A stretch of 64,000 bases of DNA from Strigamia acuminata (taxonomy: Eukaryota; Arthropoda; Chilopoda; Geophilomorpha; Linotaeniidae): positions 498,501-562,500 of the forward strand of contig OX442320.1 of NCBI GenBank assembly GCA_949358305.1, read 5' to 3'. A program made the position numbers and the translations under genes. This document shows positions 16,100 through 57,284 of this stretch, in pieces (the first letter of the stretch is position 1; each line of letters starts with the position of its first letter). The notes beneath the pieces were generated by a model, which was not told the origin of the DNA, did not search any database, and saw only the letters and a program-made list of their open reading frames with translations.

Positions 16100-17864
16100 G
16101 GTTTAAACACTATTTCTGAACATTCAGAGACATTGGTCTTGTGGTGTTTGTGCTAAGTCAACTGTGATGAGATCAAAAGTCTATTCTCCCAAATCATTGC
16201 TTGGATGTTGCTAAAACTTCTCTTGAAGTCTTCTACTAAGGTTTAAACACTATTTCTGAACATTCAGAGACATTGGTCTTGTGGTGTTTGTGCTAAGTCA
16301 ACTGTGATGAGATCAAAAGTCTATTCTCCCAAATCATTGCTTGGATGTTTCTAAAACTTACATTGGAGCCTTCTACTAAGGTTTAAACACTATTTCTGAA
16401 CATTCAGAGACATTGGTCTTGTGGTGTTTGTGCTAAGTCAACTATGATGAGATCAAAAGTCTATTCTCCCAAATGATTGCTTGGATGTTTCTAAAACTTA
16501 CATTGGAGCCTTCTACTAAGGTTTAAACACTATTTCTGAACATTCAGAGACATTGGTCTTGTGGTGTTTGTGCTAAGTCAACTGTGATGAGATCAAAAGT
16601 CTATTCTCCCAAATCATTGCTTGGATGTTTCTAAAACTTACATTGGAGCCTTCTACTAAGGTTTAAACACTATTTCTGAACATTCAGAGACATTGATCTT
16701 GTGGTCTTTGTGCTAAGTCAACTGCAATGTGAAATAAGCTCAAAATTTTTTTTTCAAAATTTATTGCTTGAATGTTGCTAAAACTTACATTGAAGGCTTC
16801 TACTAAGGTTTAAACACTATTTCTGAACATTCAGAGACATTGGTCTTGTGGTGTTTGTGCTAAGTCAACTGTGATGAGATCAAAAGTCTATTCTCCCAAA
16901 TCATTGCTTAGATGTTTCTAAAACTTACATTGGAGCCTTCTACTAAGGTTTAAACACTATTTCTGAACATTCAGAGACATTGGTCTTGTGGTGTTTGTGC
17001 TAAGTCAACTGTGATGAGATCAAAAGTCTATTCTCCCAAATCATTGCTTGGATGTTTCTAAAACTTACATTGGAGCCTTCTACTAAGGTTTAAACACTAT
17101 TTCTGAACATTCAGAGACATTGGTCTTGTGGTGTTTGTGCTAAGTCAACTATGATGAGATCAAAAGTCTATTCTCCCAAATGATTGCTTGGATGTTTCTA
17201 AAACTTACATTGGAGCCTTCTACTAAGGTTTAAACACTATTTCTGAACATTCAGAGACATTGGTCTTGTGGTGTTTGTGCTAAGTTAACTGTGATGAGAT
17301 CAAAAGTCTATTCTCGCAAATCATTACTTGGATGTTGCTAAAACTTCTCTTGAAGTCTTCTACTAAGGTTTAAACACTATTTCTGAACATTCAGAGACAT
17401 TGGTCTTGTGGTGTTTGTGCTAAGTCAACTGCGATGTGAAATGAGCTCAAAATTTTTTTTTCAAAATTTATTGCTTGGATGTTGCTAAAACTTAGAATTG
17501 GAGCCTTCTACTAAGGTTTAAACACTATTTCTGAACATTCAGAGACATTGGTCTTGTGGTGTTTGTGCTAAGTCAACTGTGATGAGATCAAAAGTCTATT
17601 CTCGCAAATCATTGCTTGGATGTTTCTAAAACTTACATTGGAGCCTTCTACTAAGGTTTAAACACTATTTCTGAACATTCAGAGACATTGATCTTGTGGT
17701 CTTTGTGCTAAGTCAACTGCAATGTGAAATAAGCTCAAAATTTTTTTTTCAAAATTTATTGCTTGGATGTTGCTAAAACTTACATTGAAGGCTTCTACTA
17801 AGGTTTAAACACTATTTCTGAACATTCAGAGACATTGGTCTTGTGGTGTTTGTGCTAAGTCAAC
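16100..17864. repeat. Satellite block 2 (about 12.5 monomers)
   Basis: Monomers of 140 bp (e.g. GTTTAAACAC at 16241 and 16381) mixed with 147-bp units in which the segment CAACTGTGATGAGATC is replaced by CAACTGCAATGTGAAATAAG plus an A/T tract (e.g. spacing 16661 to 16808). Each monomer holds the dyads GTTTAAAC and TCTGAACATTCAGA. The block ends in CAAC (17861-17864), the target duplication of the kinase element. Confidence 0.96.
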
Positions 17865-18822
17865 TGTTTCGAGCAACAGAAAGGAGGAAAGAGAGACCAC
17901 AACTGCTCGTCAATTTGATAGTAGTTTGATTTTATGTGTTCGAAAATGTAAAGAAGAGTTACTAATTTCGGTCTTATAATTGTATTATTTATTTAGCAAA
18001 TATCTAATCTTTTTCTGTTGTAATAGGAATTTTTACATGTCTTTTTTTGTGTGCCAATTTTCAGTAAAGACAATGTTTGTTAGGTATTTTATCTCTTAGA
18101 ATGACAAGGTCAAGGTTTAGGAATTTTTAGTCTTGTTTTCCAATGTTTTCATGCTATGTTTACCTATTTCTAAGTCTTGTCCTGTTCCCAGTTCAGTTGT
18201 GAAGGCGGAATGACGGGTTTGAAGCATCTGAGTTGCTTTAAAGGTGCATTGGAAAAGAAGGAATTGTTAATTTTGTAATGGATTGCAATTAATGCATTTT
18301 TACAGTGTATTTGACTTGCTTTAGATGCGTTATTTGCATATTTAGTTAAGTTTATTCCTTTTCTATTTGTTATAATTCTTTCCAATGGTTTCTGTTAATT
18401 TTAGTTGATTTTATCTCTATTATGAGGCACAATGCAAGCTTTAACTTATGTTATTTATGAATTTAGTCACTAGGTGCCTCATGAATTTGTTGTTGCTATA
18501 GAATTGTTGTTGTTATGAAGTTGTTACACTCTTGTTATGAAGAATTAGAAGTAGTTAAGTTGAATTTGCCTCCATGTTAATGTTTTGAAATGATTAAAAG
18601 CATTATCTGGATTTTTCTACACAAAGGTTTATTTTATTCAACATCCAACATGTGTGAGTAGGGAGAGTTAACCCCAAACTCCCTGGAGCAGCTCCCCTCA
18701 AGATCCAGTGCAGAAACTCAAGTCAACTCATTTCTCCTCTCAGTATAGGCCTATGGGAAATTTGCCAAGAATTCCCCATCGCGTTACAACTCGTCGCATC
18801 ACAGCAGTGGCGAGTTGCAACA
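17865..18822 (+). repeat. 5' LTR of kinase element (958 bp)
   Basis: Starts TGTTTCGAGCAACAG and ends GAGTTGCAACA, so the ends are TG...CA. The terminal TTGCAACA matches the LTR end of both other BEL families in the window. Confidence 0.95.
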
Positions 18823-18823
18823 T

Positions 18824-18839
18824 TTTTGGTACCGTGACC
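18824..18839 (+). other. BEL primer-site motif of kinase element
   Basis: TTTTGGTACCGTGACC directly follows the LTR. Copy A of BEL-1 has TTTTGGTGCCGTGACC and copy B has one extra base, in equivalent places. Conservation across families supports a primer-binding role; the tRNA is not identified. Confidence 0.7.
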
Positions 18840-19992
18840 CAAGGATTTTGTTGTTGCCAACCAGGATTTTCGTCCAGTTCTTCCAGTGGATTTCAGTGCA
18901 CGTCATTGCATTTTTAGCCAGGTGTGTGACGTCGATTTCACGGTGATTTGCGTGTGTGTTCTCAGCTTCACAGTGAGGCAGTGTGTGGCATCTAGTTCGC
19001 AGTAAGCAGTGTGTGGTGCCGATTTTCGTGGTGTGAAGTGTGTGACAACACGTTTTTTGATTTATTTCCACTGGATTATTGTCGCCAATTGCGACAGAAG
19101 TGTGTTTGTGCTGTGTCATCCTTCGCAGTCGTCAGGGAGTTGATTCGTCAGTGGATTTTATGTCAAGTGTAACGAGTTCGGAGTCCTTCTACTGTGGCGG
19201 TCAACATAAGGAGACAAGCAAGCGATTTCCTGGTCAACAATTTGAGAAACACAACGCAATGTCAATCTTCAAGTTCATCTGCAGCTGAAAAAAGAACAAG
19301 ATTAATTTTAATTCAATTGCTGTTAGAATTTAAGAATTATATTTATTTAAATTAATTCTTTATCTGATTTTTCAAGGAAGTTTCTGCCAATTTCGAGCTG
19401 TGTTTGGGGAGTTTAAAAGGGGTTTTTTATGTCAATAATTTTAAATATCAAGTTATTATCTCTTAAGTGCAGAACTATTGTATATGATAGCTAATTATCT
19501 CTTTTGTGCAGCGCTATTATAAACTATAGCTATTATCTCTTTTTGTGCGGGGTTATTGTAAAATATAACTATTTATCTCTTTGTGCGGGGTTATTGTAAA
19601 ATATAACTATTTATCTCCTTTGTGCAGTGTTATTGTAAAAGATAACTATTTATCTCGGTTGTGCGGTTAGATATTAATTATTAATTTCGAACTAAGTGCA
19701 TTTTGGGGGAATTATCAAGATATTTATGTGGATAAGTCAATTTGTGCGGCCAATAATTCCGTCCCATTGTATTACGTATAGTGTGTTAAGTCAATTTGTC
19801 TGTGGTATTTCGGAGTTGAGTTTAGCATTTATTTCGAGGTCGTTTTTCATTTGCACACCGCATTTGAATTAACGATAAGCAAGTATAAGTACGAGTCTGT
19901 GAAGTTCGGAGTATATTCGTGGGAATTTAATTCGAAGTTATTGAGTTGTTGAACAGAATTTTTATTCTCATTCTCTCCTTTCCGATAATTAA
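18840..19992 (+). other. Leader of kinase element with a 38-40 bp minisatellite
   Basis: Untranslated leader. Bases 19457-19670 hold six diverged tandem units of 38-40 bp, each starting TATCTC, with TGTGCGG or TGTGCAG and TTATTGTAAAATATAACTAT-like segments. No coding frame is supported. Confidence 0.75.
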
Positions 19993-22980
19993 ATGGCAAC
20001 TGCAGCTGGTTTAACCGCGGAAGTAGCGGAGGAGAAAGAAACACAATGGCAAGCCAAGGCCCAAGGAGCAGAGGATCTGCTCTTGACATCTGCAAACGTT
20101 CTCGACGGGGGTGAGCTAGAAGCTCTCCACGCAACAATAGACGCACAGTTGAGTGATCTCATTGACGAGCTTGCTGTCTTTAAAGATAAGATAGAACGTT
20201 CAGATTACCTGTTTAGTTTGAGACGTCTTGAAGACATTAGGACAAAGGTCAATCTTCTTAAGCAAAGGACAAAGTTTTCGAAGCAGATGCAGGACAAGTT
20301 TGGGGCCCATCCAGGCGGCAATACGTTAATGAATTCGGGATTTCTGAACAACTCATCAATCATATCACGGAAGACTACAAAGCTTCCAAAGCTGACTCTT
20401 CAGAAATTTGACGGGAATCCGATGGAGTATAAGAGCTTCATGGATATGTTTTCAACCACAGTTGACGCCGATGCCGAGTTATCGAACGTCGAAAAACTTC
20501 AATATCTTAAATCAAGCTGTATCGGGGAAGCGGAAGTGGCAATCAAGTCGTACCCACTTACCAGCGATTCGTATTTAATGGCACTTAGCAGTTTAGAAGG
20601 ACTTTTTGGGTCAGAAGTAGCCCAAAAGAACGCTCTGGCGAGGAAAATTCGTGAAGCCGAAGCAGTTAAAGATTTGTACCCAATCAAGCCAGTAAAATCT
20701 CTATTGACGTCCCTCACCGGTGCTTTCCGAACATTAGAACAGTTGAAGTTCCCAGTTACGACTACTGGATTATTTCTAATCCCGGAATTATTGCGGAAGT
20801 TTCCACCGGAATTGGGAAGACGATTTCATAGGATTTACAAAGGAAACGTGGAAAACGTTAATTTATTTCTCGAATTTGTAGCAAGCGAAGTCAGAGTAGC
20901 AGAATTATCAGACGATAGCGTATTTACCAGTCAGAAAGTCACCAAGAAGAGTGAGAAACCAGCAACTAGAGAGCAAAAAGAAGAATTACGAGGGACCATG
21001 TCATCTTGCGCGGTTGCGCAAAATACGTCATTCGGGTCCAATACGAAAGAATCATTCAAACCAAAATCAGGTCCAGTCCGGAAATTGATCTGTGCCTTCT
21101 GTGAAGGAGATCATTTCAACAATAATTGCGACGCAAATCTGGAAGTTTCGGAGAAATACGACATCGTTAAGCGAAAACGTCTATGCTTTAATTGCCTGAG
21201 ACCAAGCCATATAGTGGGTAACTGCCCTGTAAAATTTTGTTGCCGATCATGCGGTGGTCGACACCATTCTTCAATTTGTAACAGAGGTCATGCGGAAAAG
21301 CCAACTGATACCAAAGAAGAGAACGTCTCCGCCAACGTCTCGTTGTCGGTCTCAAGTGACGTCCAGCTAATGGTTTTCACAGCATTGTTCGTCCGAAAGA
21401 GTGGCGAAACAATCCCAGTTCGTGGATTACTCGATCCGGGTAGTCATCGTTCATATATTACGAAGCGGTTAGCAAAGAAATTACACCTAAACAAGATTGA
21501 GACGTATCACACCATGACCCAGTGTCTGCTGAACAAGGAACCAGTTCCTACAACTCATGACGTGTTTAGATTCGAGTTGCAGTCTCGTCACGACAAGCAG
21601 AAAGTGTCTGTATTTGCTCTTGATACCGACACACTTCCCAATATAAAGGGAGTGGTAGATCACCAGACGCTGCAACAAATCAAGTCGTTTAATCTTGAGA
21701 TGGCAGAACCACATCCCTCCGTGTCAGATGAGGTAGATGTCTTGATCGGAAGCGGAGCATGGTGGAAAATAATTCAAGCGGGAACGAAGAGAATTAGTCC
21801 AGAATTAGGAATGATGAAAACAGTTTTTGGATGGATTTTAAACGGACGAATTAACTCAAAAGAGCCTTCCATCTACAAAGACGATATCTCACTGGGAGAT
21901 GTATCGTGTATGGCGATCGATTCTGGAAAGAAGATGACTTTCAACACTTCAAAAAAGGACAAAGGCGGGTTTGGACAGGCGAATTCCACATCAATGCCCG
22001 ACGAGAAAAGCGAAAAGGGTGGAGTACGAGCAAAAGGCGTCATCGCTTCTCGTTTTGCCGCGAGCCGCTCTAGCGAGCTGGAGGTACGGCATCCTGACGT
22101 CCCCATCGAATTGGAAATAGATGGAAAGCGGACGTTTAAAGGGATAAGGTCGGGCAAGATGGCGATTTCTCAGAGTCCTGACACACTGGAGTCTACGGAA
22201 AAGAAAGGAGAATTTCCGAAAAATTTCAAAAAAGATGAAGAAAAGGGTTTAAGTAAATGGAGGAAGATATTGAAATGGAGTCGCAAGAAACTCACCAATT
22301 CGCACAGAAGATCAAATGAAGTCACAAAGGCCACGGGAAATATACATTTAGTAATTGGCCCAATGTTTTCTGGAAAAACTACTGCTTTACTTAATGTAAT
22401 CCGAAATGAAGAAGAAAATTCTTGCCTGCTTGTTAAGCATTTGACAGACGTTAGATATAGTAAAGATGAAATGGTAAGCCACACCGGACAACGACGTCCA
22501 GCGGTTCGGGTCGCGTCGTTACAGGAAATCAAGAAAATTGCGGAGTCGGTCAAGACGATAGGTATCGACGAAGGGCAATTTTTCGGAGACATCGATTCGT
22601 TTTCCGACGAAATGGCGAACGAAGGAAAGAATGTAATAATTGCCGCTTTAAATGGTGATTTTAAGAGACGGAAATTCAAGGCAGTATCTAATCTCATTCC
22701 ACTAGCGGAAACTATTGTCAAACTTCATGCCAAATGCCACTTTTGTGGAAACCAAGCGTCGTTCACCAAACGAATATCGGGTGAAACGCAAGTTCAGGTT
22801 GTGGGAGGAGAAGAGAGATACAAGCCAACGTGTCGTACCTGTTTTCAGAAATCAATCAATTCTATAGAAGTCAAGAGAAAGCTAATTAATGGAGCGGCAC
22901 ATTTAAGTTTAGCGATTTTGAATCGAAGATTACCTCCATGGGTGGCCAGTCTGATCTGCAAAAAATTGCGCCCACCTTAA
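19993..22980 (+). CDS. Gag-protease-thymidine kinase fusion polyprotein (995 aa)
   Basis: Single uninterrupted ORF. Residues 1-350 are BEL-type Gag. C367/C370 begin a cysteine cluster followed by two CCHC knuckles (C398-C401-H406-C411 and C417-C420-H425-C429). The aspartic protease has active-site D481 in LLDPGSHRS and the DVLIGSGAWW segment near 583. After a lysine-rich linker (about 640-780) comes a complete TK1-type kinase: P-loop GPMFSGKTT at 789-797, IDEGQFF at 858-864 with the expected catalytic Glu (E860), an ALNGDFKRRKF lasso-like segment, four zinc cysteines C915/C918/C947/C950 and the FTKR and GGEERY segments before the last pair. TK1 enzymes phosphorylate thymidine to dTMP. Every key residue I know for the family is present, so activity is plausible. 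No RT or integrase follows. Fusion to Gag would place the kinase inside particles, with release by the protease (inference). Confidence 0.92.
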   Translation: MATAAGLTAEVAEEKETQWQAKAQGAEDLLLTSANVLDGGELEALHATIDAQLSDLIDELAVFKDKIERSDYLFSLRRLEDIRTKVNLLKQRTKFSKQMQDKFGAHPGGNTLMNSGFLNNSSIISRKTTKLPKLTLQKFDGNPMEYKSFMDMFSTTVDADAELSNVEKLQYLKSSCIGEAEVAIKSYPLTSDSYLMALSSLEGLFGSEVAQKNALARKIREAEAVKDLYPIKPVKSLLTSLTGAFRTLEQLKFPVTTTGLFLIPELLRKFPPELGRRFHRIYKGNVENVNLFLEFVASEVRVAELSDDSVFTSQKVTKKSEKPATREQKEELRGTMSSCAVAQNTSFGSNTKESFKPKSGPVRKLICAFCEGDHFNNNCDANLEVSEKYDIVKRKRLCFNCLRPSHIVGNCPVKFCCRSCGGRHHSSICNRGHAEKPTDTKEENVSANVSLSVSSDVQLMVFTALFVRKSGETIPVRGLLDPGSHRSYITKRLAKKLHLNKIETYHTMTQCLLNKEPVPTTHDVFRFELQSRHDKQKVSVFALDTDTLPNIKGVVDHQTLQQIKSFNLEMAEPHPSVSDEVDVLIGSGAWWKIIQAGTKRISPELGMMKTVFGWILNGRINSKEPSIYKDDISLGDVSCMAIDSGKKMTFNTSKKDKGGFGQANSTSMPDEKSEKGGVRAKGVIASRFAASRSSELEVRHPDVPIELEIDGKRTFKGIRSGKMAISQSPDTLESTEKKGEFPKNFKKDEEKGLSKWRKILKWSRKKLTNSHRRSNEVTKATGNIHLVIGPMFSGKTTALLNVIRNEEENSCLLVKHLTDVRYSKDEMVSHTGQRRPAVRVASLQEIKKIAESVKTIGIDEGQFFGDIDSFSDEMANEGKNVIIAALNGDFKRRKFKAVSNLIPLAETIVKLHAKCHFCGNQASFTKRISGETQVQVVGGEERYKPTCRTCFQKSINSIEVKRKLINGAAHLSLAILNRRLPPWVASLICKKLRPP

Positions 22981-23073
22981 AGAGTCACTGGGAATCTAAT
23001 CCTAGATGGATGAGAAGTTTTCAAATTGTTAAGAGGTTCTTCTTCACCTTCTTTTCTTTTCGGCGGCAATCTC
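22981..23073 (+). other. Segment before the 3' LTR of the kinase element
   Basis: 93 bases ending in a pyrimidine run and CGGCGGCAATCTC directly before the LTR. No purine tract is seen there; a purine-rich run (AAAGGAGGAAAGAGAG) instead sits about 14 bases inside the LTR. Confidence 0.6.
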
Positions 23074-24031
23074 TGTTTCGAGCAACAGAAAGGAGGAAAG
23101 AGAGACCACAACTGCTCGTCAATTTGATAGTAGTTTGATTTTATGTGTTCGAAAATGTAAAGAAGAGTTACTAATTTCGGTCTTATAATTGTATTATTTA
23201 TTTAGCAAATATCTAATCTTTTTCTGTTGTAATAGGAATTTTTACATGTCTTTTTTTGTGTGCCAATTTTCAGTAAAGACAATGTTTGTTAGGTATTTTA
23301 TCTCTTAGAATGACAAGGTCAAGGTTTAGGAATTTTTAGTCTTGTTTTCCAATGTTTTCATGCTATGTTTACCTATTTCTAAGTCTTGTCCTGTTCCCAG
23401 TTCAGTTGTGAAGGCGGAATGACGGGTTTGAAGCATCTGAGTTGCTTTAAAGGTGCATTGGAAAAGAAGGAATTGTTAATTTTGTAATGGATTGCAATTA
23501 ATGCATTTTTACAGTGTATTTGACTTGCTTTAGATGCGTTATTTGCATATTTAGTTAAGTTTATTCCTTTTCTATTTGTTATAATTCTTTCCAATGGTTT
23601 CTGTTAATTTTAGTTGATTTTATCTCTATTATGAGGCACAATGCAAGCTTTAACTTATGTTATTTATGAATTTAGTCACTAGGTGCCTCATGAATTTGTT
23701 GTTGCTATAGAATTGTTGTTGTTATGAAGTTGTTACACTCTTGTTATGAAGAATTAGAAGTAGTTAAGTTGAATTTGCCTCCATGTTAATGTTTTGAAAT
23801 GATTAAAAGCATTATCTGGATTTTTCTACACAAAGGTTTATTTTATTCAACATCCAACATGTGTGAGTAGGGAGAGTTAACCCCAAACTCCCTGGAGCAG
23901 CTCCCCTCAAGATCCAGTGCAGAAACTCAAGTCAACTCATTTCTCCTCTCAGTATAGGCCTATGGGAAATTTGCCAAGAATTCCCCATCGCGTTACAACT
24001 CGTCGCATCACGGCAGTGGCGAGTTGCAACA
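23074..24031 (+). repeat. 3' LTR of kinase element (958 bp)
   Basis: Same length and ends as the 5' LTR, followed by CAAC (24032-24035) and satellite. Confidence 0.95.
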
Positions 24032-26301
24032 CAACTGTGATGAGATCAAAAGTCTATTCTCCCAAATCATTGCTTGGATGTTTCTAAAACTTACATTGGA
24101 GCCTTCTACTAAGGTTTAAACACTATTTCTGAACATTCAGAGACATTGGTCTTGTGGTGTTTGTGCTAAGTCAACTGTGATGAGATCAAAAGTCTATTCT
24201 CTCAAATCATTGCTTGGATGTTTCTAAAACTTACATTGGAGCCTTCTACTAAGGTTTAAACACTATTTCTGAACATTCAGAGACATTGGTCTTGTGGTGT
24301 TTGTGCTAAGTCAACTGCGATGTGAAATGAGCTCAAAATTTTTTTTTCAAATTTTTTTGCTTGGATGTTGCTAAAACTTACATTGGAGCCTTCTACTAAG
24401 GTTTAAACACTATTTCTGAATATTCAGAGACATTGGTCTTGTGGTGTTTGTGCTAAGTCAACTGTGATGAGATCAAAAGTCTATTCTCCCAAATCATTGC
24501 TTGGATGTTTCTAAAACTTACATTGGAGCCTTCTACTAAGGTTTAAACACTATTTCTGAACATTCAGAGACATTGATCTTGTGGTCTTTGTGCTAAGTCA
24601 ACTGCAATGTGAAATAAGCTCAAAATTTTTTTTTCAAAATTTATTGCTTGGATGTTGCTAAAACTTACATTGAAAACTTCTACTAAGGTTTAAACACTAT
24701 TTCTGAACATTCAGAGACATTGGTCTTGTGGTGTTTGTGCTAAGTCAACTGTGATGAGATCAAAAGTCTATTCTCCCAAATCATTGCTTGGATGTTTCTA
24801 AAACTTACATTGGAGCCTTCTACTAAGGTTTAAACACTATTTCTGAACATTCAGAGACATTGGTCTTGTGGTGTTTGTGCTAAGTCAACCGTGATGAGAT
24901 CAAAAGTCTATTCTCCCAAATCATTGCTTGGATGTTTCTAAAACTTACATTGGAGCCTTCTACTAAGGTTTAAACACTATTTCTGAACATTCAGAGACAT
25001 TGGTCTTGTGGTGTTTGTGCTAAGTCAACTGTGATGAGATCAAAAGTCTATTCTCCCAAATCATTGCTTGGATGTTTCTAAAACTTACATTGGAGCCTTC
25101 TACTAAGGTTTAAACACTATTTCTGAACATTCAGAGACATTGGTCTTGTGGTGTTTGTGCTAAGTCAACTGTGATGAGATCAAAAGTCTATTCTCCGAAA
25201 TCATTGCTTGGATGTTTCTAAAACTTACATTGGAGCCTTCTACTAAGGTTTAAACACTATTTCTGAACATTCAGAGACATTGATCTTGTGGTCTTTGTGC
25301 TAAGTCAACTGCAATGTGAAATAAGCTCAAATTTTTTTTTTCAAAATTTATTGCTTGGATGTTGCTAAAACTTACATTGAAGGCTTCTACTAAGGTTTAA
25401 ACACTATTTCTGAACATTCAGAGACATTGGACTTGTGGTGTTTGTGCTAAGTCAACCGTGATGAGATCAAAAGTCTATTCTCCCAAATCATTGCTTGGAT
25501 GTTTCTAAAACTTACATTGGAGCCTTCTACTAAGGTTTAAACACTATTTCTGAACATTCAGAGACATTGGTCTTGTGGTGTTTGTGCTAAGTCAACTGTG
25601 ATGAGATCAAAAGTCTATTCTCCCAAATCATTGCTTGGATGTTTCTAAAACTTACATTGGAGCCTTCTACTAAGGTTTAAACACTATTTCTGAACATTCA
25701 GAGACATTGATCTTGTGGTCTTTGTGCTAAGTCAACTGCAATGTGAAATAAGCTCAAAATTTTTTTTTCAAAATTTATTGCTTGGATGTTGCTAAAACTT
25801 ACATTGAAGGCTTCTACTAAGGTTTACACACTATTTCTGAACATTCAGAGACATTGGACTTGTGGTGTTTGTGCTAAGTCAACCGTGATGAGATCAAAAG
25901 TCTATTCTCCCAAATCATTGCTTGGATGTTTCTAAAACTTACATTGGAGCCTTCTACTAAGGTTTAAACACTATTTCTGAACATTCAGAGACATTGGTCT
26001 TGTGGTGTTTGTGCTAAGTCAACTGTGATAAGATCAAAAGTCTATTCTCCCAAATCATTGCTTGGATGTTTCTAAAACTTACATTGGAGCCTTCTACTAA
26101 GGTTTAAACACTATTTCTGAACATTCAGAGACATTGGTCTTGTGGTGTTTGTGCTAAGTCAACTATGATGAGATCAAAAGTCTATTCTCCCAAATGATTG
26201 CTTGGATGTTTCTAAAACTTACATTGGAGCCTTCTACTAAGGTTTAAACACTATTTCTGAACATTCAGAGACATTAGTCTTGTGGTGTTTGTGCTAAGTT
26301 A
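24032..26301. repeat. Satellite block 3 (about 16 monomers)
   Basis: Continuation of the array interrupted by the kinase element. 147-bp-type monomers recur near 24317, 24602, 25308 and 25737. The unit before them typically carries GATCTTGTGGTCTTTG and the unit after begins CAACCGTG, which indicates higher-order structure. It ends in GTTA (26298-26301), the BEL-2 target duplication. Confidence 0.96.
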
Positions 26302-28947: not shown

Positions 28948-30270
28948 GTGAACGATCAAACAGGAAACAGGAACAATGCAATCCAGGAGGTGATCTCAAT
29001 CATTATCAAAATGGCTGCACTAACAACACAACAATTTGAAATGATGCTGTTTGTTATGTCTTCGAAGTTAAATGAAGTGAACACTCGAATAGCAGCAAAC
29101 CACCACAGATTGATGCAGCTGTTGCGCCATCGCCAGCGCCGCCAAATTCGTCTACGCAAAATGGAGTTAATTATTACCACATACTTGATTCAAATGCAGA
29201 GGGCCCAGCCTGTTTGTTGGTCACAAGTAAAATCAGACGAATGGTGGGTAATTGCGAAAAATATGTCTGACAAGCGGTGGAAAGACAACTTCAGAGTCTC
29301 GAGAGCAACATACAACTATTTGTGCACCCAGATGAATGAAATGACACGTGAAGACACACACTACAGACGGAGCATTGAATTAGATAAACGAGTTGCGATT
29401 GCATTGTACACTCTTGCCTCAACAGCCGAATTTAGAACAATTGGACATTTGTTTGGGATTGGCAAGACGTCAGTCTGCGAGATACTACATGAATTTGTGT
29501 GCTTAGTTGTTGATAAGTTGATGCCTGAACATATAAAGTTCCCACAAACCCGGGAGGAATTGAAAATGAAGGCAGAAGAGTTTAAATTGTTATGGGAATT
29601 TCCTCAGTGCATCGGGGCAATAGATGGTACACATATTAAAATTGGTCCACCCAAAGAACATGCAGTTGATTATTATAACTACAAAAGTTGCTACAGCATT
29701 GTTTTGTTAGCAATTTGTGATGCTGCGTACAAATTCACGTACATTAATGCTGGTGCAGCAGGAAGAAACAATGACTCCCATGTGTTTCAAAATTGTGGAA
29801 TATTTTCTGTAATGACAAAGTGTCAATTATTACATGATCTTGGTGAACTGTATATGGGTAAAAAAATTCCTTTGCTGTTGCTTGCTGATTCTGCCTTTCC
29901 ACTAATGCCAACGGTTATGAAACCTTTTCCAGATAATAATGATTTACCTGATGAAAAAAGATTATTTAACTATCATTTGTCCAAAGCTAGGAGAGTTATT
30001 GAAAATGCATTTGGCCGTTTGAAGGCACGATTTCGATTTGTTAGTAAAAGAATAGAATTAAATTTAGAAAATGTGTCACAAGTAGTCCAATGTTGTTGCA
30101 CATTGCATAATATTTGTGAGCAATTAAATGATAATGTTGAGCAAGCGTGGCTAGATGAATTGAGTGTTGCTGTAAACAACGAGGGTCATGCAACTGTGCT
30201 TGGGGAGAGAGATAATGGAGCTCAAATAATCCGAGAGGCACTTGTTGAATACTTCCAGACCCTCCCGTGA
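28948..30270 (+). CDS. PIF/Harbinger DDE transposase (440 aa)
   Basis: Intact ORF with the nuclease domain known as DDE_Tnp_4/HARBI1-like. The acidic triad is visible: D226 in GAIDGTH, D314 in LADSAFPL and E352 in RRVIENAFGRLKARF. A helix-turn-helix-like stretch precedes it (about 148-190, containing TIGHLFGIGKTSV). Length fits the family. The true start may be the ATG at 29011 (MAALTTQQ), because the residues before it are not conserved-looking. AATAAA-type signals follow at about 30328. It cuts and joins the element ends, and in known PIF/Harbinger systems needs the Myb-like partner to enter the nucleus and bind DNA. Three acidic residues and an uninterrupted frame suggest it is active. Confidence 0.95.
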   Translation: MNDQTGNRNNAIQEVISIIIKMAALTTQQFEMMLFVMSSKLNEVNTRIAANHHRLMQLLRHRQRRQIRLRKMELIITTYLIQMQRAQPVCWSQVKSDEWWVIAKNMSDKRWKDNFRVSRATYNYLCTQMNEMTREDTHYRRSIELDKRVAIALYTLASTAEFRTIGHLFGIGKTSVCEILHEFVCLVVDKLMPEHIKFPQTREELKMKAEEFKLLWEFPQCIGAIDGTHIKIGPPKEHAVDYYNYKSCYSIVLLAICDAAYKFTYINAGAAGRNNDSHVFQNCGIFSVMTKCQLLHDLGELYMGKKIPLLLLADSAFPLMPTVMKPFPDNNDLPDEKRLFNYHLSKARRVIENAFGRLKARFRFVSKRIELNLENVSQVVQCCCTLHNICEQLNDNVEQAWLDELSVAVNNEGHATVLGERDNGAQIIREALVEYFQTLP

Positions 30271-33882: not shown

Positions 33883-36800
33883 ATGTCAGACAAAGATGAG
33901 CAATCCACGTCTGAAACCGAGCAGAGAATGCCCGAGAAGGGAAAAAGGACCTCCGACTACCACCTAAGATCGGATGGTCCCGTCCCTGAAATGTCCGCAA
34001 AGGCGAAAGCCCGAGCGAATAAAAAGAGAGCGAAGGCGCAGAAAGAGGAGCAAGCTGCATCGCTCGCGGCCCTAGACGGGCCAGAGCGAGAGCGGGTTCC
34101 CTTGAATATGCAACCCTTCGAAGATACCGATCCGGAAGCCATAGAAAATCGAGAAGAAATTCGCGACGTATCGCCAGGACGAGTATCGATATTGATGACC
34201 GAGGAGACGAATGAAGCTCCGAAAAAAACGGTCACGGTCGGCACGAACCCATCGCCACCCACGGCTCAGACGTCCGTGGAGCAAACCCCACGAAAAAACG
34301 ACGGCGGGACCCCGATAACCCCCCGAGTTACGGCGAGTCCTGCAGTTGTTTCCTTCGAGGTATCTCACCTAATTCGGTTGACACGGCAAGCTGCCCAACT
34401 GAAAGCGATAATAGACATTCCAGTAGGAACGTCAGTCTGGGAATCGATTACTCTGCTCACCGACGCTATCTGCGCGGCACAAGCCCCGACGCCGGTCGCA
34501 AGACCAGCAGCGGAGACGCCCATGCCCCAGGTAACGCCCAGTGACACCGGAGGTTTCGCGCCAGACCCCAACCGAGCACTTCACCAATCCAGAGAGAAGG
34601 CCCGCGAAGAAGCCAGACAAGAAGCGACTAATCGCCAACGAAGACTGAGCGCAGAGCGGCGAGAACTCTGGAAGGAAGAGGAAGAAAGGGAACAACGCGA
34701 GAGAAGAACCACCGAGAGAACAGAGAAACTGGTCCAAAAAATGAGGGAAGAACGAGAAGCTAAAATTCGAAAAGAATGGAACGCCACGGTAGAAGGGCGA
34801 CATCGAGAAGCGCAAGAGTACGAGGACCAATTTCAAGCGCTCGTAGCTCAAAGAAAAGCAGAAAAGCTACAAATGTTGCGAGAAGAAGCCATTCTACAAC
34901 ATCAGAAATGGGAAGAACAACATCGCGAGAGGTTGAGAGAAGAGGAAGCCAGAAAAGAAAAAGAACAGTTCCTGAAAGAGAAAGAGGAATGGGACCGAGT
35001 CAGATGGACCGAAGAGTACAAAGCAAAGAAACAAGCCATAATAGATGAGCAAAAAAGATGGGAAGCCGAAAACTGGGAGAAAGAAACAGAAAAGTTCCAA
35101 AAGGAGTACGAACAAGGTGTCTCGGGCAGGAAGAAAAGGGAAGAAAACCCGAAACGGAAGTCAGAACCCCCAAGCGGCTCTGATACCGACACAGGAGAAG
35201 ATGCAGCAAAGCCGGCAAAAACGGCAAAAAGGGGGAAATCTCAAAAGAGAGACGGATCGGTCCCAAAAACAAAGGACCGTCACCCCTCAAAAAGATCCGA
35301 GACGGGAGCAGCCATCGACGCGTTACTCGAAAAGAAAAACGCAAATAAAAATCGGGAACGCCCCGAAAGCGAGGAAAACAGATGGCATTCTTTTTACGAG
35401 AACAACGACGGAGGGGAGCCGCCGCCATCCGAAGGCTCGAAACAGAAGAAGGCTGGCGGAGAGACCCCACCGAGAGGGCCGAGGTTTCACCCCCAAGGAG
35501 ATCCCTCCGAGCCCTCCGATTCGTCGGACGACGACCATCCGAGTCGACCGTCTACAGGGAGGAGTCAAGAAGGCAGCGATGGGCACCGGTCGAACCGGCC
35601 GAATACTTCAGACCGCTCTTCCCGGAGCTCCAACCCTCGTTCAGAGAAAGGGAACTTTCAGGACTCATCTGGCCGACATTACACGATGTCTGAGCTAGGC
35701 CGAGCCCTGCTGAACTCTTTCAGAAGAGAGGGAATCGATCTAGGCCATCCAGGCGACGAACATAATCGCGCTGGAGAGAGGGTTAAGCGCAAATATGGCG
35801 TACGAAACGAACCAAGCAGTGAAGCCACGGGTAACATCCGCTGGCAACACTATATTCAAACGCGATTTGACGGTTCGTGGAAGGCCGGAGACCGCTTCCT
35901 GGACGAAGTAATGCGTATCAAGAAAGCGACAAAAGCCACCGTCGCCGACATGCTAACCCACGGGCTAGTGGAGCTAACTACGGGGTCAGCTCGAGAATGG
36001 TACCAGGGACTGAAAAACCCAACCTGGGACGATTTTCTCGTCCGTTTCCATCTCCGATACGGCGAGACTCCAGACGAGATCAGTAACAAATTACGTGGTC
36101 TACGACAAGCCCCAGGAGAAACATTAGCCGACTACGACGCCCGAGCGAAACTCCTGTTTGCAAGAGCGCCGTATGAAATAAACCCCGCTGGTTTTACGAT
36201 GATCTTTTACGGAGGATTATCGGCCCACTCGCAAAGAATTCTGCTAGACATGCGTGCACCCCGCACTGGCGATTACCAAGATGTCAGTAACTATCTTCTA
36301 ACAAACACGTTAGAAATAGAACAGCGGTATTACGCCACTCTGCCCCCGGAAGAAGCGGACGCGCACGAGAAACGGTTGCAGACGAGCGCCGAACGTCACA
36401 AGACCTCAGAAAAATTAATGAGGCCAAGTGAATATTTGAGCGGCATAATGAGTCTCACCGAAGCATCCTTCGGACAAATGCTGACGCCTAAAGCAGGCAG
36501 TATTCTTCCAGCCAACCCGATAGCTGCCCCAAAGAAAGCACCGGCAGCGACGGCGATGCAGGTGACCTCGACGGACTCCACCCAGATGGAGAAAGTCGAA
36601 GAGACAACACCTCTCGCCACGGCTAAAGAAGAGGAGCCAGCATCGAGCGACGAGGAAGCCCTAAATGAGCACCTCGAAAACTTATCGACAGGATGCGACG
36701 ATCAAGGTCCCTATTTGCACCATGCACACCGGGCCTTGGCAATCACACAATTCAGAGCACACGTGCAGGCAACAAAAGCGAGAGGAGCATTGGGAGGAAA

Positions 36801-37023
36801 AAGACGATTCCCGACGCCCTTCGTCCCGAAAAAACCGGGATTCACTCCCACAGGGGATAAAAGTAACATCAAATGTTACAGCTGTGGGGAATACGGCCAC
36901 TACTCAGATAAATGTGAGAAAACCGTCAAAGAAAAGGACATCATGCAAACCATGATGAAAATGATGATGGAGTTAAAAACTGATCTGGCAAAAAACTTCC
37001 AAGCGCAGGCGTCGCCGAAATAA
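33883..37023 (+). CDS. gag: Gypsy Gag polyprotein (1,046 aa)
   Basis: Structural protein of the particle. N-terminal 230 residues are Pro/Thr-rich. Residues about 230-420 are an extreme Glu/Arg/Lys-rich stretch with the look of a long coiled coil; 420-640 are charged and Ser/Pro-rich. The retrotransposon Gag core lies near 650-800 (W in AREWYQGL, FLVRFHLRYG). One CCHC zinc knuckle CYSCGEYGHYSDKC sits near 997-1010, followed by a Met-rich end. At 1,046 residues it is far longer than most gypsy Gags, mainly because of the coiled coil. The stop at 37021 is preceded by a frameshift signal into pol. Confidence 0.92.
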   Translation: MSDKDEQSTSETEQRMPEKGKRTSDYHLRSDGPVPEMSAKAKARANKKRAKAQKEEQAASLAALDGPERERVPLNMQPFEDTDPEAIENREEIRDVSPGRVSILMTEETNEAPKKTVTVGTNPSPPTAQTSVEQTPRKNDGGTPITPRVTASPAVVSFEVSHLIRLTRQAAQLKAIIDIPVGTSVWESITLLTDAICAAQAPTPVARPAAETPMPQVTPSDTGGFAPDPNRALHQSREKAREEARQEATNRQRRLSAERRELWKEEEEREQRERRTTERTEKLVQKMREEREAKIRKEWNATVEGRHREAQEYEDQFQALVAQRKAEKLQMLREEAILQHQKWEEQHRERLREEEARKEKEQFLKEKEEWDRVRWTEEYKAKKQAIIDEQKRWEAENWEKETEKFQKEYEQGVSGRKKREENPKRKSEPPSGSDTDTGEDAAKPAKTAKRGKSQKRDGSVPKTKDRHPSKRSETGAAIDALLEKKNANKNRERPESEENRWHSFYENNDGGEPPPSEGSKQKKAGGETPPRGPRFHPQGDPSEPSDSSDDDHPSRPSTGRSQEGSDGHRSNRPNTSDRSSRSSNPRSEKGNFQDSSGRHYTMSELGRALLNSFRREGIDLGHPGDEHNRAGERVKRKYGVRNEPSSEATGNIRWQHYIQTRFDGSWKAGDRFLDEVMRIKKATKATVADMLTHGLVELTTGSAREWYQGLKNPTWDDFLVRFHLRYGETPDEISNKLRGLRQAPGETLADYDARAKLLFARAPYEINPAGFTMIFYGGLSAHSQRILLDMRAPRTGDYQDVSNYLLTNTLEIEQRYYATLPPEEADAHEKRLQTSAERHKTSEKLMRPSEYLSGIMSLTEASFGQMLTPKAGSILPANPIAAPKKAPAATAMQVTSTDSTQMEKVEETTPLATAKEEEPASSDEEALNEHLENLSTGCDDQGPYLHHAHRALAITQFRAHVQATKARGALGGKRRFPTPFVPKKPGFTPTGDKSNIKCYSCGEYGHYSDKCEKTVKEKDIMQTMMKMMMELKTDLAKNFQAQASPK
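36990..36996 (+). promoter_or_regulatory. -1 ribosomal frameshift heptamer between gag and pol
   Basis: A AAA AAC in the Gag reading frame (codons GCA AAA AAC), the classic X-XXY-YYZ slippery form. It lies inside the short gag/pol overlap: the pol frame is open only from 36984, and gag stops at 37021. A structured stimulator downstream was not tested. Confidence 0.8.
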
Positions 37024-40000
37024 ATTCAGCTTCGTCTGCGCCAGCCACGGAAATTAAAAAGAAGAAATATCACACTGGACCCGCAGGTCATGCCTTGGCA
37101 GAGGCACAGATCAAAGACCGCATACAGACCGTTCCGAAGAAGGAGGAAAAAGTGACGTTAACGAGTATGCAAGTGAGAACGAAACCGGAGGTCGACATGG
37201 ATTGGACGGACCTTCCGTTCAATCTGGAGGTTGAGCCCCAGACATTACGCGTATTTCACTGCAATGTCACGAAAGCACATTGCGAAACTCTGTGTATGCT
37301 GCCAGTGGAGATAGAAAACCAAAAATTGTTCGGCCTGCTGGATTCAGGAGCGGATCGTTCATTCATATCCGAAGATATAGTAAAGGACTTGCATATTGGA
37401 AAAAAGGTGGCACAAGTGAACGCGAACGTAGAATTGCTCACCGCCAACGGCTACGTCAAGCCGAAGGGCGTGGTTCGCATCATGATCGACTGGAAGGGAG
37501 GGAACTTGTCCCACCCCTTCATAGTCTTGCCATCCCACGACAAAGTATTCCTCCTAGGGATGGATATCATGGCGAAACTGAAAATTCAGCCAAACCCGAT
37601 AACCCGTTCATGGAACTGGATAAGTCCCGAGGGAGAACGGCCAGTCTCCGTAGTTCCCCAAAAATTACTGGACGAAGCCAAGGACAAAGAGGAATACGGA
37701 AGAGGATTGCGAAAATTCGTCCAAGATTACGATTTCGCAGCCTTCACTCTGGAATTACAGAGGAGTAACGTCGTGGACACCCTGGTCGAGGAGGCAGCAC
37801 TGCGTGTTAACGAGGCATCGCTACTAAGGCGAGTGCTTCGAAAACATGAAAGAATTCTGACCAAGACACCTGGTCGAACGACGGAAGCAACACACGAAAT
37901 AGTCTTAACCACAGACAAGCCGATTCGAGTGCCTTACAAGGGGATGAACCCCCAGAAAAGAGACATTGTGACGCAAATGTGTCAAGACATGCTCGACAAG
38001 GGCATAGTAACGCAAGCCCTGGGCGAATACGCCATGCGGATCGTCCTGGTGATGCGTCCAGGTTCGGAACCTCGACTATGCATCGATTATCGCCCCCTGA
38101 ACGCGATAACGGTTATAGACCCGATTCAGATGCCGTCTATAGACTCGATCCTCCGGGAACTGAGCCCATTTAAGTGGGTAACCACCATGGACCTGTCAAA
38201 GGGGTATTGGCAGGTGGAACTCAAACCCGAAGACAAACTGAAAACAGCTTTCTACTCCCCGATAGGAAGACTAATGTTCAACGTGATGCCGTTCGGGCTT
38301 GTAAATGCCCCGAGCACGTTCCAGAAATTGATCGAAAGCGTGTTGGGAGATATGCTGCACGACTTCGTGTGGGCGTATCTCGACGACATCATAATAACGT
38401 CGGACACATTCGAAGAGCATATAGACCACATCGATAGAGTGGTCTCTCGCCTAGCCAAGGCGGGACTCCACATCCATCCAGGGAAGAGCAAGTTTTGCAG
38501 GAAAGAGCTTGCCTTCCTAGGATATCGAATAGGAGTCGAGGGAATCGCAATTGACCCCGAAAAAGTCAAAGCAATAAACGGATTCCCCGCCCCCGAAGAT
38601 ATAAAAGGTGTCCAGAGATTCATGGGCATGGTCAATTTCTTCGGCCGACTACTCTCTGGTCTGGCTGAAGTGGCCGCGCCTATAACGGATCTCTTACGAA
38701 CGGATAAAGAGTTTGAGTGGACGGTCCAGTGCGAGGCCGCATTTAGCACTATCAAGCAAATGCTGGCTGACGTCGAAAAAATGCCATTGCCGGACCTAAA
38801 CCGCCCGTTCGTGTTGCACACCGACGCGAGTAAAATCGGACTGGGTGCAGCCCTTCTGCAGACCCACGTGTACAACGGAATCTCGCAAGAAGTACCCTGT
38901 ATGTTTATAAGCAGAAAAATACAGGGCGCGGAGAAAAATTACACGGCAACGGAACTAGAATGCCTAGCCGTAATTTGGGCAGTTCGGAAATTTCGCGACT
39001 ATCTGGAGTACACGAACTTCGAGGTTCAGACAGATCACCAGGCACTAAGCTGGTTGATGAAGCTCAAGGAACCCTCCGGCCGACTCGCACGATGGCAACT
39101 GGAGTTAATGGCGTGCGATATAACAATTACGTACCGCTCCGGGAAGTACAATCATGTGGCCGACGCCCTCTCGAGAGCCCCAGCCTCTGACCCCCAAGGA
39201 CCAGACGACGACGGCGAGGACGACACCCACCTCTTGTACTGCCCGACTCCACGGAGAATATGGCGTTTGCGGAAGGCGAACGAGCTACCAGTGATGGGGC
39301 CCGAAGATAGAACGTTTTGTGGTTTTTGGACTCGAACATACCAGCCAGCTGGGACGAACGATTCAACATCCGAAATTCAATCTCCGCCCCCCGGAGAAAC
39401 CCACAAAACACTACTACGCGCCTTCACAACAAAAATTGAAGAAAAAACGCAATACGCTCCACCCACGAGACGTGAGTTCGTCGAGCACCAGGCAGCAGAC
39501 ACAAAATGTCAAATTATAACACAATATTTGCTAAACGGCGAATTTCCGGAAGGGATGACAAACCCCCACCGCCGAAAACAGTTCGTCAAGGAAGCAACAA
39601 GCTACCTCATAGATGATGAACTCCTGGTAAAATACCACCCGACGTTTCAAGATGACCTCAGCGGAGCGGGAAACTCGGTTAAAGTGGTCGTGCCGGCATC
39701 GCTGCACACCCGACTGTTGTGGCTGATGCACGGACACCCGCTCGCCAGCCATTCTGGCGTGGCGAGGACCCTTTATCGAGTAAAACAACTTTTCTTCTGG
39801 CCGGGCGCGCGGCAAAAGATAACGAAATTTATCCGACACTGCTCCCGGTGCCAAGCGTGCAGACCGCGAGATAAAGTAGCCAGAAACGCCATGTCTCTCG
39901 GACCCTACGCACCGTTTGACTGCCTAAGCATAGACTTGATGGGCCCCAAGCCCACAACGGGAAACAAGAACATGTATATTCTCGTAATTATGGATGTGGC

Positions 40001-41132
40001 CACCCGATGGCCGGAGCTGTACGCCCTCGTAAAGCCCTCGGCTGAAAACATAGTCGAGTGCCTTTACGACGTGGCAATGCGATTTGGGTTTCCCAGAAAA
40101 ATCATTTCGGATAACGGCCCCCAATTCCGATCAAGAGTATATAAGGACTTCTGTAGAAAATTTAAAATGGATGCATCAAACACCTCCACGTATAATCCTC
40201 AGACAAACCCAGTCGAGAGATTAAATAAAGACATAAAATATGCGCTGACAGTATTCACCGATATTCACAATCGATGGGACGAATACCTGCGAGAAATCGC
40301 TTTCAGCATTCGCTCAACCGTGTCAAGAACACGCGAATTCTCACCGGCGTACCTCAACTTCGCCTGCGAATTAAGGATGCCATGGGACCCACGCGTTGCC
40401 GAAGCTGTTAACGTATTAGACCCATCGAGCCCACATGAGTACGTGTGCCGGTTGGAACAGACTATATCCGACACATACCAGCATACGATGGCGCATATTT
40501 TCAACATGAGAGAGAGAATCGCAGATAAAGAAGGCGATCTCGCTTTCGCGAACTTTAAAGTGAATGATCTAGTATGGAAGGAGGCACACACGTTGTCCAA
40601 CGCAGCGAGGGGCATCGCCGCCGGTTTAGCCGACAAGAGGGACGGTCCCTATGTAATTGTGGCCGAACACGGCGGCAACGCATACCAACTACGCCGCTTA
40701 GAGGACAACAAAAATTTTCAGTCGATACATGGCCGAGATTTAAGGCCATATCTGCCAGAGTTTCCCCAAGAAATCTGGCTGGAAGGTCAGACACACAGCG
40801 GCCAAGGGGGCACCGTGGTCGACACGTTCCAAAAAACAAATGAAACTGAAAATATAGCGGAGGACGAGGATGAATTCTTCGACGCCGAATCTCCGGCCGA
40901 CGAGGCTCCAGCACAGCCGGAGCAAGCAATTTCGGAGAGGGAGGAAGCAGAAGAAAGTACTTCTGAAATGAAAAATAAAAAAATTAGTAATGAGAAAAAT
41001 GCCAACACATCGGAGATGAACGAGCAAGTAGAGTCACGATCTACGAGCACGTCGAAAATCAACCTTCGACCACGACGAAGCAATAATCCGTTCATTCGGG
41101 ACGGCAAAGTCGTGGGGAAGAACTCAAAATAA
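36996..41132 (+). CDS. pol: Gypsy Pol: protease, RT, RNase H, integrase
   Basis: Open frame of 1,379 codons in -1 relative to gag, with no early ATG, so it is expected as a Gag-Pol fusion. Taking 37095 as residue 1: protease LLDSGADRSF near 80; RT with FGLVNAPSTF and YLDDIII near 428; RNase H with LHTDASKIGLGA near 575; integrase zinc finger (H-x-H...CSRCQAC) near 878-922; catalytic core with D in SIDLMGP (about 945), D in ISDNGPQ (about 1,005) and E in NPVERLNKD (about 1,040). The C-terminus is acidic then Ser/Asn-rich and has no recognisable chromodomain. All active-site residues are present. Confidence 0.95.
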   Translation, partial: LPSAGVAEINSASSAPATEIKKKKYHTGPAGHALAEAQIKDRIQTVPKKEEKVTLTSMQVRTKPEVDMDWTDLPFNLEVEPQTLRVFHCNVTKAHCETLCMLPVEIENQKLFGLLDSGADRSFISEDIVKDLHIGKKVAQVNANVELLTANGYVKPKGVVRIMIDWKGGNLSHPFIVLPSHDKVFLLGMDIMAKLKIQPNPITRSWNWISPEGERPVSVVPQKLLDEAKDKEEYGRGLRKFVQDYDFAAFTLELQRSNVVDTLVEEAALRVNEASLLRRVLRKHERILTKTPGRTTEATHEIVLTTDKPIRVPYKGMNPQKRDIVTQMCQDMLDKGIVTQALGEYAMRIVLVMRPGSEPRLCIDYRPLNAITVIDPIQMPSIDSILRELSPFKWVTTMDLSKGYWQVELKPEDKLKTAFYSPIGRLMFNVMPFGLVNAPSTFQKLIESVLGDMLHDFVWAYLDDIIITSDTFEEHIDHIDRVVSRLAKAGLHIHPGKSKFCRKELAFLGYRIGVEGIAIDPEKVKAINGFPAPEDIKGVQRFMGMVNFFGRLLSGLAEVAAPITDLLRTDKEFEWTVQCEAAFSTIKQMLADVEKMPLPDLNRPFVLHTDASKIGLGAALLQTHVYNGISQEVPCMFISRKIQGAEKNYTATELECLAVIWAVRKFRDYLEYTNFEVQTDHQALSWLMKLKEPSGRLARWQLELMACDITITYRSGKYNHVADALSRAPASDPQGPDDDGEDDTHLLYCPTPRRIWRLRKANELPVMGPEDRTFCGFWTRTYQPAGTNDSTSEIQSPPPGETHKTLLRAFTTKIEEKTQYAPPTRREFVEHQAADTKCQIITQYLLNGEFPEGMTNPHRRKQFVKEATSYLIDDELLVKYHPTFQDDLSGAGNSVKVVVPASLHTRLLWLMHGHPLASHSGVARTLYRVKQLFFWPGARQKITKFIRHCSRCQACRPRDKVARNAMSLGPYAPFDCLSIDLMGPKPTTGNKNMYILVIMDVATRWPELYALVKPSAENIVECLYDVAMRFGFPRKIISDNGPQFRSRVYKDFCRKFKMDASNTSTYNPQTNPVERLNKDIKYALTVFTDIHNRWDEYLREIAFSIRSTVSRTREFSPAYLNFACELRMPWDPRVAEAVNVLDPSSPHEYVCRLEQTISDTYQHTMAHIFNMRERIADKEGDLAFANFKVNDLVWKEAHTLSNAARGIAAGLADKRDGPYVIVAEHGGNAYQLRRLEDNKNFQSIHGRDLRPYLPEFPQEIWLEGQTHSGQGGTVVDTFQKTNETENIAEDEDEFFDAESPADEAPAQPEQAISEREEAEESTSEMKNKKISNEKNANTSEMNEQVESRSTSTSKINLRPRRSNNPFIRDGKVVGKNSK

Positions 41133-56560: not shown

Positions 56561-57284
56561 TGTTGCAGGTCAACAAGACAGATAGAAAGGAATGGCGATG
56601 CGTATCCAAATTCAAGACACTTGAGCTCGCCCAAGGTCGTATGGCGTGGCTAGTACGAAAATCGCACTGGAGAGCAATAAATCCGCAACAAATGGCATTG
56701 TTGTACCGCTGGAACAATGTGGAGAACACCTGCACCAAGTATCCAATAGGTGGCAGAAACATAAGTTGGCCTGAGAATTTTTAAACTACTCACTACACAT
56801 TGAATGTGTTTGAAAATAAACCTAAAACAAGAGCTAATAAAACACAACACATTTATTCAAAGGTTGGTTAATAACTGAAGAAATTACAGCAATTAGATTG
56901 GTTCTTAGAGAACCGCACATGCGCAGTACCGAATATGGCACGCGCCAGGCCGATAGCGGCGAAATACAGATACACGAAAGATTCCGTTACCATGGTAACG
57001 GAGGAAACAAGATTACGGCAAAGTTGGCATTTGCTAAAAAATGCATTAAAAATACATTGAATTACATTGAAATGACCACAAGAATGCGGTGAACAAAAAA
57101 GCTAATCACAACAATGTCCAAAAACACGTTAAACAATGAGATATTTGCAATAAACCGATCTCGGAAAGAAAGGATTGAAAATAGCCAATCACAGGCTTCG
57201 AATATGACATAACGATCACATTTGAATTTCGATCGGTACAAAAGCACAAAATTATCAAAGAATACATACTGAATAATAACGCAA
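56561..57284 (-). repeat. BEL-1 copy B 5' LTR, truncated (724 of about 1,562 bp)
   Basis: Matches 4980-5703 and stops at GCAA shared with the adjoining BEL-2 LTR. The missing part is the sense-upstream half, where the promoter would be expected. Confidence 0.92.

Follow-up and report, generated by a model that had tools for sequence, protein, structure and literature searches.

Why would an element that otherwise looks like a retrotransposon carry a thymidine kinase (TK) where its polymerase should stand? The question is raised by a 64,000-nucleotide stretch of the genome of the centipede Strigamia acuminata (contig OX442320.1 of assembly GCA_949358305.1, positions 498,501 to 562,500, forward strand; hereafter the window), in which an earlier note had pointed to a frame joining BEL Gag and protease to a TK1-family kinase between two long terminal repeats (LTRs). 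Our results showed that the TK occupies Pol's place behind a BEL Gag-protease, and that the kinase is kept by purifying selection. To judge from its sequence, the element is a non-autonomous BEL/Pao-type LTR retrotransposon whose only predicted protein is Gag-protease-thymidine kinase. The whole is best explained, we think with reasonable probability, by a helper-mobilised family whose kinase would feed dTTP to reverse transcription.

A thymidine kinase in Pol's place

The open reading frame (ORF) of the element runs uninterrupted for 995 amino acids (Table 1), and its domains are those that the earlier note had claimed. In Pfam searches it matched the BEL Gag domain DUF1759, two protease models within residues 475-619 (E ~1e-3, short of the curated cut-offs by a few bits) and, over 176/176 profile positions, PF00265 (E=2.5e-54). 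At E<=1 the ORF had no listed match to a family of reverse transcriptase (RT), RNase H or integrase, and the next longest closed frame listed in positions 19000-24500 was 183 amino acids long and antisense to the kinase, in agreement with the reported absence of these enzymes. The kinase motifs also lie at the residues first given for them: GPMFSGKT (the P-loop) begins at residue 789, DEGQFF at 859 (catalytic E860), and the zinc pairs CHFC and CRTC at 915 and 947, which puts the cysteines at 915, 918, 947 and 950.

We compared this frame with an ordinary BEL Gag-Pol polyprotein of 1746 amino acids from the same window. Residues 7-631 aligned with 38% identity over 636 columns (E=1e-141), and the match stopped just past the protease, where the longer polyprotein runs on towards RT. 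None of three BEL frames of the window gave a significant alignment beyond residue 661. The frame at another locus, L067, which by eye is like the window BEL polyprotein, carries BEL RT, integrase and DUF5641 models. The protease active site of the Gag-TK element reads D-P-G-S (window 21433-21444); the same four residues occur in many of the BEL frames read (L063-L067, L085, L086 and the window BEL frames), and L084 has D-T-G-S.

Hallmarks of an LTR retrotransposon are present: direct LTRs with 1 difference in 958 positions, TG..CA ends and the CAAC target-site duplication on both sides. (The BLAST match between the LTRs is 959 bp because one chance base is counted in; the true length is 958 bp.) A leader of 1.17 kb separates the 5' LTR from the ORF, and 93 bp separate the ORF from the 3' LTR. 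Four nucleotides past the LTR stands the TGG core of a putative primer site, TGGTACCGTGACCC; similar cores are found behind the 5' LTR in L067, in the window BEL elements and in a copy of a second Gag-TK lineage, B (see below). This copy of the element sits inside a 140-bp satellite. We regard the anatomy and family of the element as close to certain.

A multi-copy family and its kinase

A PF00265 search of the 237.5-Mb genome yielded 205 candidates, 150 of which were scored. Open frames of 995-1013 amino acids contained 84 of the 150 matches (32 of 995, 5 of 1002, 34 of 1013 and 13 of 1009 residues); their Gag-TK nature was read directly in the fetched loci and, for the others, follows from frame length and protease matches at corresponding places. 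Eight more matches belonged to the same lineages but lay in frames that were shorter or interrupted, and 58 were not linked to Gag. The Gag-linked copies form lineage A, to which the window copy belongs, A' (L002; 74% identical to A over 716 columns) and B (L023 and others; 49% identical to A over 731 columns), with B2 and B3 within B. In addition, 40 LTR matches scored among 101 candidates were 98-100% identical to the LTR of A. With dozens of copies on many contigs, the family cannot be an assembly artefact, a doubt that the earlier note had itself raised along with that of a single decayed copy. Longer frames (1118 and 1999 amino acids) that apparently joined TK to Pol were rejected, as they contain long runs of N.

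The flanks of the copies show how they arose. Among 25 A copies (24 loci and the window) we counted 19 distinct 40-nt 3' flanks: 10 in the satellite, in various registers and both orientations, 8 outside it and 1 in an LTR-to-LTR tandem. Four groups were duplicated along with their flanks (L012-L015, L008/L009, L019/L020 and L006/L010). The distinct flanks and the shared-flank groups together indicate repeated insertion followed in some cases by duplication of whole segments, and there are too many distinct flanks for all copies to have come from satellite amplification. Since the LTR pairs seen are identical or nearly so (one B copy showed no difference across the 1186 bp of 5' LTR that were fetched), insertion appears to have been recent.

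Selection was estimated as the Nei-Gojobori ratio of nonsynonymous to synonymous substitution (dN/dS) on lineage pairs. Between A and A' the ratio was 0.112 for the kinase, 0.069 for the protease and 0.073 for the Gag part, with 0.45 for the linker and 0.36 for the tail. Within B the kinase gave 0.120 (B/B2), 0.155 (B/B3) and 0.173 (B2/B3), the linker 0.38, 0.69 and 0.84 for the same pairs (from only 32-33 codons) and the tail 0.84, 0.28 and 0.24. Synonymous sites were saturated in the comparison of A and B kinases. These ratios, a check that the earlier note had proposed, show purifying selection on the kinase and, together with the copy number, dispose of the single decayed copy. Five checked motifs were intact in 36/38 fetched Gag-linked copies, mostly the best-scoring ones; the exceptions were L044, with a stop, and L052, with a changed P-loop.

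A structure model of residues 765-995 had a mean confidence score (pLDDT) of 81, falling to 62-66 around the lasso and the zinc part. Its best match in the PDB was human TK1, 1xbt (E=1.4e-18, TMt 0.85, TMq 0.61, 44% identity). With P-loop, DEGQ catalytic glutamate, two CxxC zinc pairs and predicted fold all present, we expect with good confidence that the kinase is enzymatically active.

The genome also holds Pol-less relatives of the Gag-TK element. Family D, with 892-residue frames (19 of 26 matched copies full length), shares with A and B the Gag-protease and a terminal tail. L065 (one copy) and L066 (three copies) are Pol-less Gag-protease frames that end in membrane-spanning-like segments and have no kinase. 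In a Gag-protease tree A, A' and B formed one clade (99/98); A and B also grouped in the Gag tree (97/92) and A, A' and B, less firmly, in the protease tree (94/95), and D, L065 and L066 had no firm place. The first Gag-protease tree had suggested that Pol was lost just once, at the root of all the Pol-less elements; this reading was withdrawn, as L084 groups with L066 by Gag.

Probable mobilisation in trans and a proposed use of the kinase

How could an element without Pol spread? The junction between the internal region and the 3' LTR reads CGGCGGCAATCTC/TGTTTCGAGCAACAG in A, CGCCGGCAATCTA/TGTTGCTAGCAACAT in B, CGGCCGGCAATCTT/TGTTGCTAGCAACAA in D, CGCGCGGGCAATCTC/TGTTGCGAATCAACAG in L065, CGCCGGCAAGACGC/TGTTGCTAGCAACCG in L080 (a copy with a 1768-residue frame), CGCCGGTAACGT/TGTTGCCAGCAATTT in L084 and GCGGCCGCCAACTTCGC/TGTTTCTAGCAGCG in L067, the boundary being base-exact (from LTR pair and target-site duplication) for A and placed by likeness elsewhere. 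Once these junctions had been seen, a pattern was derived from A, B, D and L080; counting both strands, it matched 32 times in 661,540 bases, in effect in four families, always at these junctions, and 0 times in five mononucleotide shuffles; 31 matches were in Pol-less elements and 1 in the BEL element with the 1768-residue frame. The TGG..CCGTGA primer-site core is spread more widely than this motif. Furthermore, Pol-less L066 and L084 are 75% identical in Gag (419 columns) and only 44% in protease, a mosaic most readily accounted for by template switching between genomes packaged together. RT and integrase were tested in L067 only; L080 was called autonomous by frame length and L084 by eye.

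Because the LTR end is like that of apparently autonomous BEL elements, and a Pol-less relative is a Gag/protease mosaic with one such element, mobilisation in trans by BEL helpers is the best reading, and we consider it highly probable. Candidate helpers would be L067-, L074- or L084-like elements. Of the suggestion that the element is a parasite of autonomous BEL elements, the dependence is thus the part that now looks likely.

We propose that the Gag-TK protein and the RNA of the element would co-assemble with the Gag-Pol of autonomous BEL elements similar in LTR end and primer site, and that RT and integrase of the helper would then copy and insert the Gag-TK element. Because it is fused to Gag, the kinase would probably be carried into or beside the particle. 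There it could phosphorylate thymidine and so supply dTTP locally to reverse transcription where cellular dTTP is low, as in non-dividing cells. A shortage of dNTPs can hold back reverse transcription, and TK or dUTPase is found in large DNA viruses and in some retroelements; the analogy is with dUTPase in other retroelements, among them betaretroviruses. We give an even chance to a supply of dTTP for reverse transcription of the element (and its helper) being what the kinase is for.

Several observations weigh against this proposal. The strict junction pattern was unmatched by A' (L002), L065, L067 and L084, although the last three resemble it by eye. The LTR of A was compared with the LTRs of L067 and the window BEL and aligned with neither, and the window BEL of 1746 residues has a different LTR end. 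Immediately upstream of its 3' LTR, A has no recognised purine-rich tract but a T-rich stretch and CGGCGGCAATCTC; L067, L080 and L084 look like A in this respect. Between the nearest copies the kinase showed no visible constraint (dN/dS 1.15 for the window copy and L001, 0.86 for the window copy and L006), ratios that rest on 4-5 changes and say little. Finally, in L063, the sole D copy read, GKT has become GKK and DEGQ and the zinc pairs are gone, in a stretch still recognisable with a kinase-plus-tail profile (E=1.5e-9; best of 999 shuffles 0.18). As family D spread, the kinase would be helpful at most, and not needed for spread, if the other D copies are like L063.

It could be asked whether the kinase fold is kept for its structure, its tetramer aiding Gag assembly or carrying the C-terminal tail while catalysis is incidental. 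TK1-type enzymes form tetramers, the TK sits at the end of Gag, and the tail is still recognisable in kinase-eroded family D. However, a scaffold would need neither nucleotide-binding nor catalytic residues, and P-loop, DEGQ and both zinc pairs are common to lineages with just 56% identity between their kinases. Constraint on the tail itself is weak (dN/dS 0.36 for A/A', 0.84 for B/B2), and family D spread without the kinase fold. We therefore regard a purely structural role as unlikely.

A service to the host, for example in germ-cell dNTP supply, or to competition among elements, by starving or favouring rivals, would separate the kinase from the element's own reverse transcription. Such a role is suggested by TKs of the same clade in repeated loci unlinked to Gag (R1, R2 and R3, with R1 in a large dispersed repeat), and by a dUTPase exon-like match 15-21 kb from the TK at 4/5 R3-type loci; these loci imply that TK has links beyond reverse transcription. 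The fusion of this kinase to Gag nevertheless points to particles, and no host phenotype is known, which leaves the host or competition role rather improbable.

That the kinase is a chance-captured passenger, spread by LTR, Gag and helper in a frame kept because Gag must be translated, would suit the spread of family D after kinase loss and the few, seemingly unconstrained changes between near copies, yet it is very improbable, since a 3'-terminal domain behind Gag-protease could be truncated with Gag unharmed, and kinase dN/dS of 0.11-0.17 (A/A', B/B2, B/B3, B2/B3) beside linker values of 0.45 (A/A') and 0.38-0.84 (B pairs) contradicts it for the deeper branches.

Thymidine kinases outside Gag, and precedents

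The tree with animal and viral TKs that the earlier note had called for was built from 49 TKs, 37 of them hand-picked from protein-database matches. The 12 from this genome fell on one side of a branch (97/93) and split into the Gag-TKs (98/95) and the R1, R2 and R3 TKs (98/89). The Gag-TKs are thus separate from the TKs of poxvirus and named animals in the sample. A poxviral origin of the kinase was unsupported, the single sampled poxvirus falling among animal TKs, apart from this clade.

R1 is a dispersed repeat of ~14.5 kb or more with few long ORFs and an intact TK of 185 amino acids; an R1-type frame of 190 amino acids was found for 40/150 scored TK matches. Large pieces of R1 are 94-99% identical between two places, with the left end seen and the right end not reached, and no LTR or terminal inverted repeat was recognised in the span examined. 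Its TK is constrained as well (dN/dS 0.127, R1/R2). Beside an R1 repeat, L082 1-3720 (C9 2780000-2783719, minus strand) holds what by eye is a Copia-like Gag-Pol frame of at least 1240 amino acids.

At the fifth R3-type locus the dUTPase match lies 64 kb off; two of the five loci were fetched and three assigned by frame and score. A sixth dUTPase match in the genome has no R3 beside it. Genome searches gave 6 matches for dUTPase and 7 for dNK, the longest frames being 148 and 194 amino acids, none of them long. A large repeat may thus hold two genes of nucleotide metabolism, one of them perhaps intron-bearing. In this genome TK seems to turn up recurrently as cargo in repeated DNA. We raise, as a tentative idea that we hold to be doubtful, that one TK is shared by unrelated selfish elements, namely a Gag-fused, helper-dependent BEL form and free-standing forms in large dispersed repeats (at least ~14.5 kb), one class perhaps with dUTPase; kinase pre-loaded in particles might then let retrotransposition run in dTTP-poor non-dividing cells and feed the helper too.

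Other features were noted by eye in the window: a gypsy-like element (33883-41132, plus strand) with a Gag-like frame of 1046 and a Pol-like frame of 1345 amino acids, and a 440-residue frame resembling a Harbinger-type transposase (28948-30270, plus strand). At L081 (contig C157) mitochondrial cox1, cox2 and cox3 are packed side by side, the cox2 stop and the recognised cox3 block being 17 nt apart; ARAGORN, run with bacterial settings, detected no tRNA in this cox region, and atp6 lies elsewhere on the contig.

Table 1. Features of the Gag-TK element, the BEL element used for comparison, and TK loci outside Gag (window positions unless a contig is named; a slash marks the internal/LTR boundary).
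Feature	Position	Strand	Basis or remark
Complete LTR element	17865-24031	+	LTR pair, CAAC both sides
Target-site duplication CAAC, left	17861..17864	+	sequence
5' LTR, 958 bp	17865..18822	+	1 mismatch vs 3' LTR
Primer-binding-site-like TGGTACCGTGACCC	18827..18840	+	4 nt past 5' LTR
39-bp tandem repeat, 5.7 copies, within 5' leader	19443..19664	+	
Single ORF, 995 aa, Gag-protease-linker-thymidine kinase-tail	19993..22980	+	stop included
Gag domain DUF1759, residues 139-282	20407..20838	+	Pfam, E=4.9e-15
Aspartic protease region, residues 475-631	21415..21885	+	homology to BEL Gag-Pol ends here
Fast-evolving linker, residues 632-780	21886..22332	+	little or no homology to compared BEL polyproteins
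TK1-type thymidine kinase, residues 782-951	22336..22845	+	PF00265
C-terminal helical tail, residues 952-995 (44 residues)	22846..22977	+	weakly constrained
Internal/3' LTR junction motif CGGCAATCTC/TGTTTCGAGCAAC	23064..23086	+	alike in Pol-less elements and in BEL elements that seem autonomous
3' LTR, 958 bp	23074..24031	+	pairwise match to 5' LTR
Target-site duplication CAAC, right	24032..24035	+	sequence
Ordinary BEL Gag-Pol, 1746 aa	50374..55614	-	comparison element, same window
LTRs of window BEL, 724 bp	56561-57284 and 48754-49477		100% identical
R1 loci L059, L060, L033, L076, L077, L082, L083	C1 ~66514195 onward; C9 ~2784206 onward		
R3 TK/dUTPase pairs	C3:1802431/1819602; C13:7699905/7714646; C5:11777646/11756499; C5:11292289/11273333; C13:1129651/1193782		

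Parts of this arrangement have precedents. With BEL/Pao elements (ICTV Belpaoviridae; PMC8742986) the Gag-TK element shares DUF1759, the protease, the primer-site core and, for some members, the LTR end; it differs from them in having a TK instead of RT, RNase H and integrase. The TR-GAG elements of plants are Gag-only LTR elements that transpose, as described in PMC8704663; like the Gag-TK element they have two LTRs, one intact Gag-bearing ORF and no Pol, and are mobile, presumably with help in trans. They are plant elements with Gag alone, whereas ours is an animal BEL element with Gag-protease and a kinase. LTR elements of bdelloid rotifers carry dUTPase, esterase or exonuclease ORFs, and such extra enzyme ORFs are shared by different retroelement classes (PMC5408684). 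Those with dUTPase, like the Gag-TK element, carry an enzyme of nucleotide metabolism, but the rotifer elements keep gag and pol and the enzyme is another one, whereas here the enzyme takes Pol's place. The TK1-type (type II) TKs of animals and large DNA viruses have the same motifs and predicted fold; in the Gag-TK element, by contrast, the kinase is the C-terminal part of a Gag polyprotein and bears an additional helical tail.

When the kinase part was searched against 5.77e9 proteins, at lengths of ~547-1741 amino acids, a single candidate came up, a protein of 605 amino acids from Trebouxia. The A1 and R2 protein searches returned 7200 and 1023 proteins at E<=0.001, of which the best 120 of each were considered, in a length range that excluded 1000-residue fusions. 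A term search of a BEL/Pao text (PMC3118150) found no occurrence of kinase or non-autonomous, and literature searches using TK as a term, of incomplete coverage and hence weak evidence of absence, turned up no LTR element described as having a TK. Gag-only LTR elements and retroelements with dUTPase were known already, and a TK in a Gag-fused LTR element appears, tentatively, to be unprecedented.

The copy number and the selected kinase suggest that selfish DNA profits from carrying a thymidine kinase. With kinase-bearing, kinase-eroded and kinase-free relatives in one genome, a role of nucleotide supply in retrotransposition becomes directly testable, and so does the notion that an element living on other parasites may contribute an enzyme.

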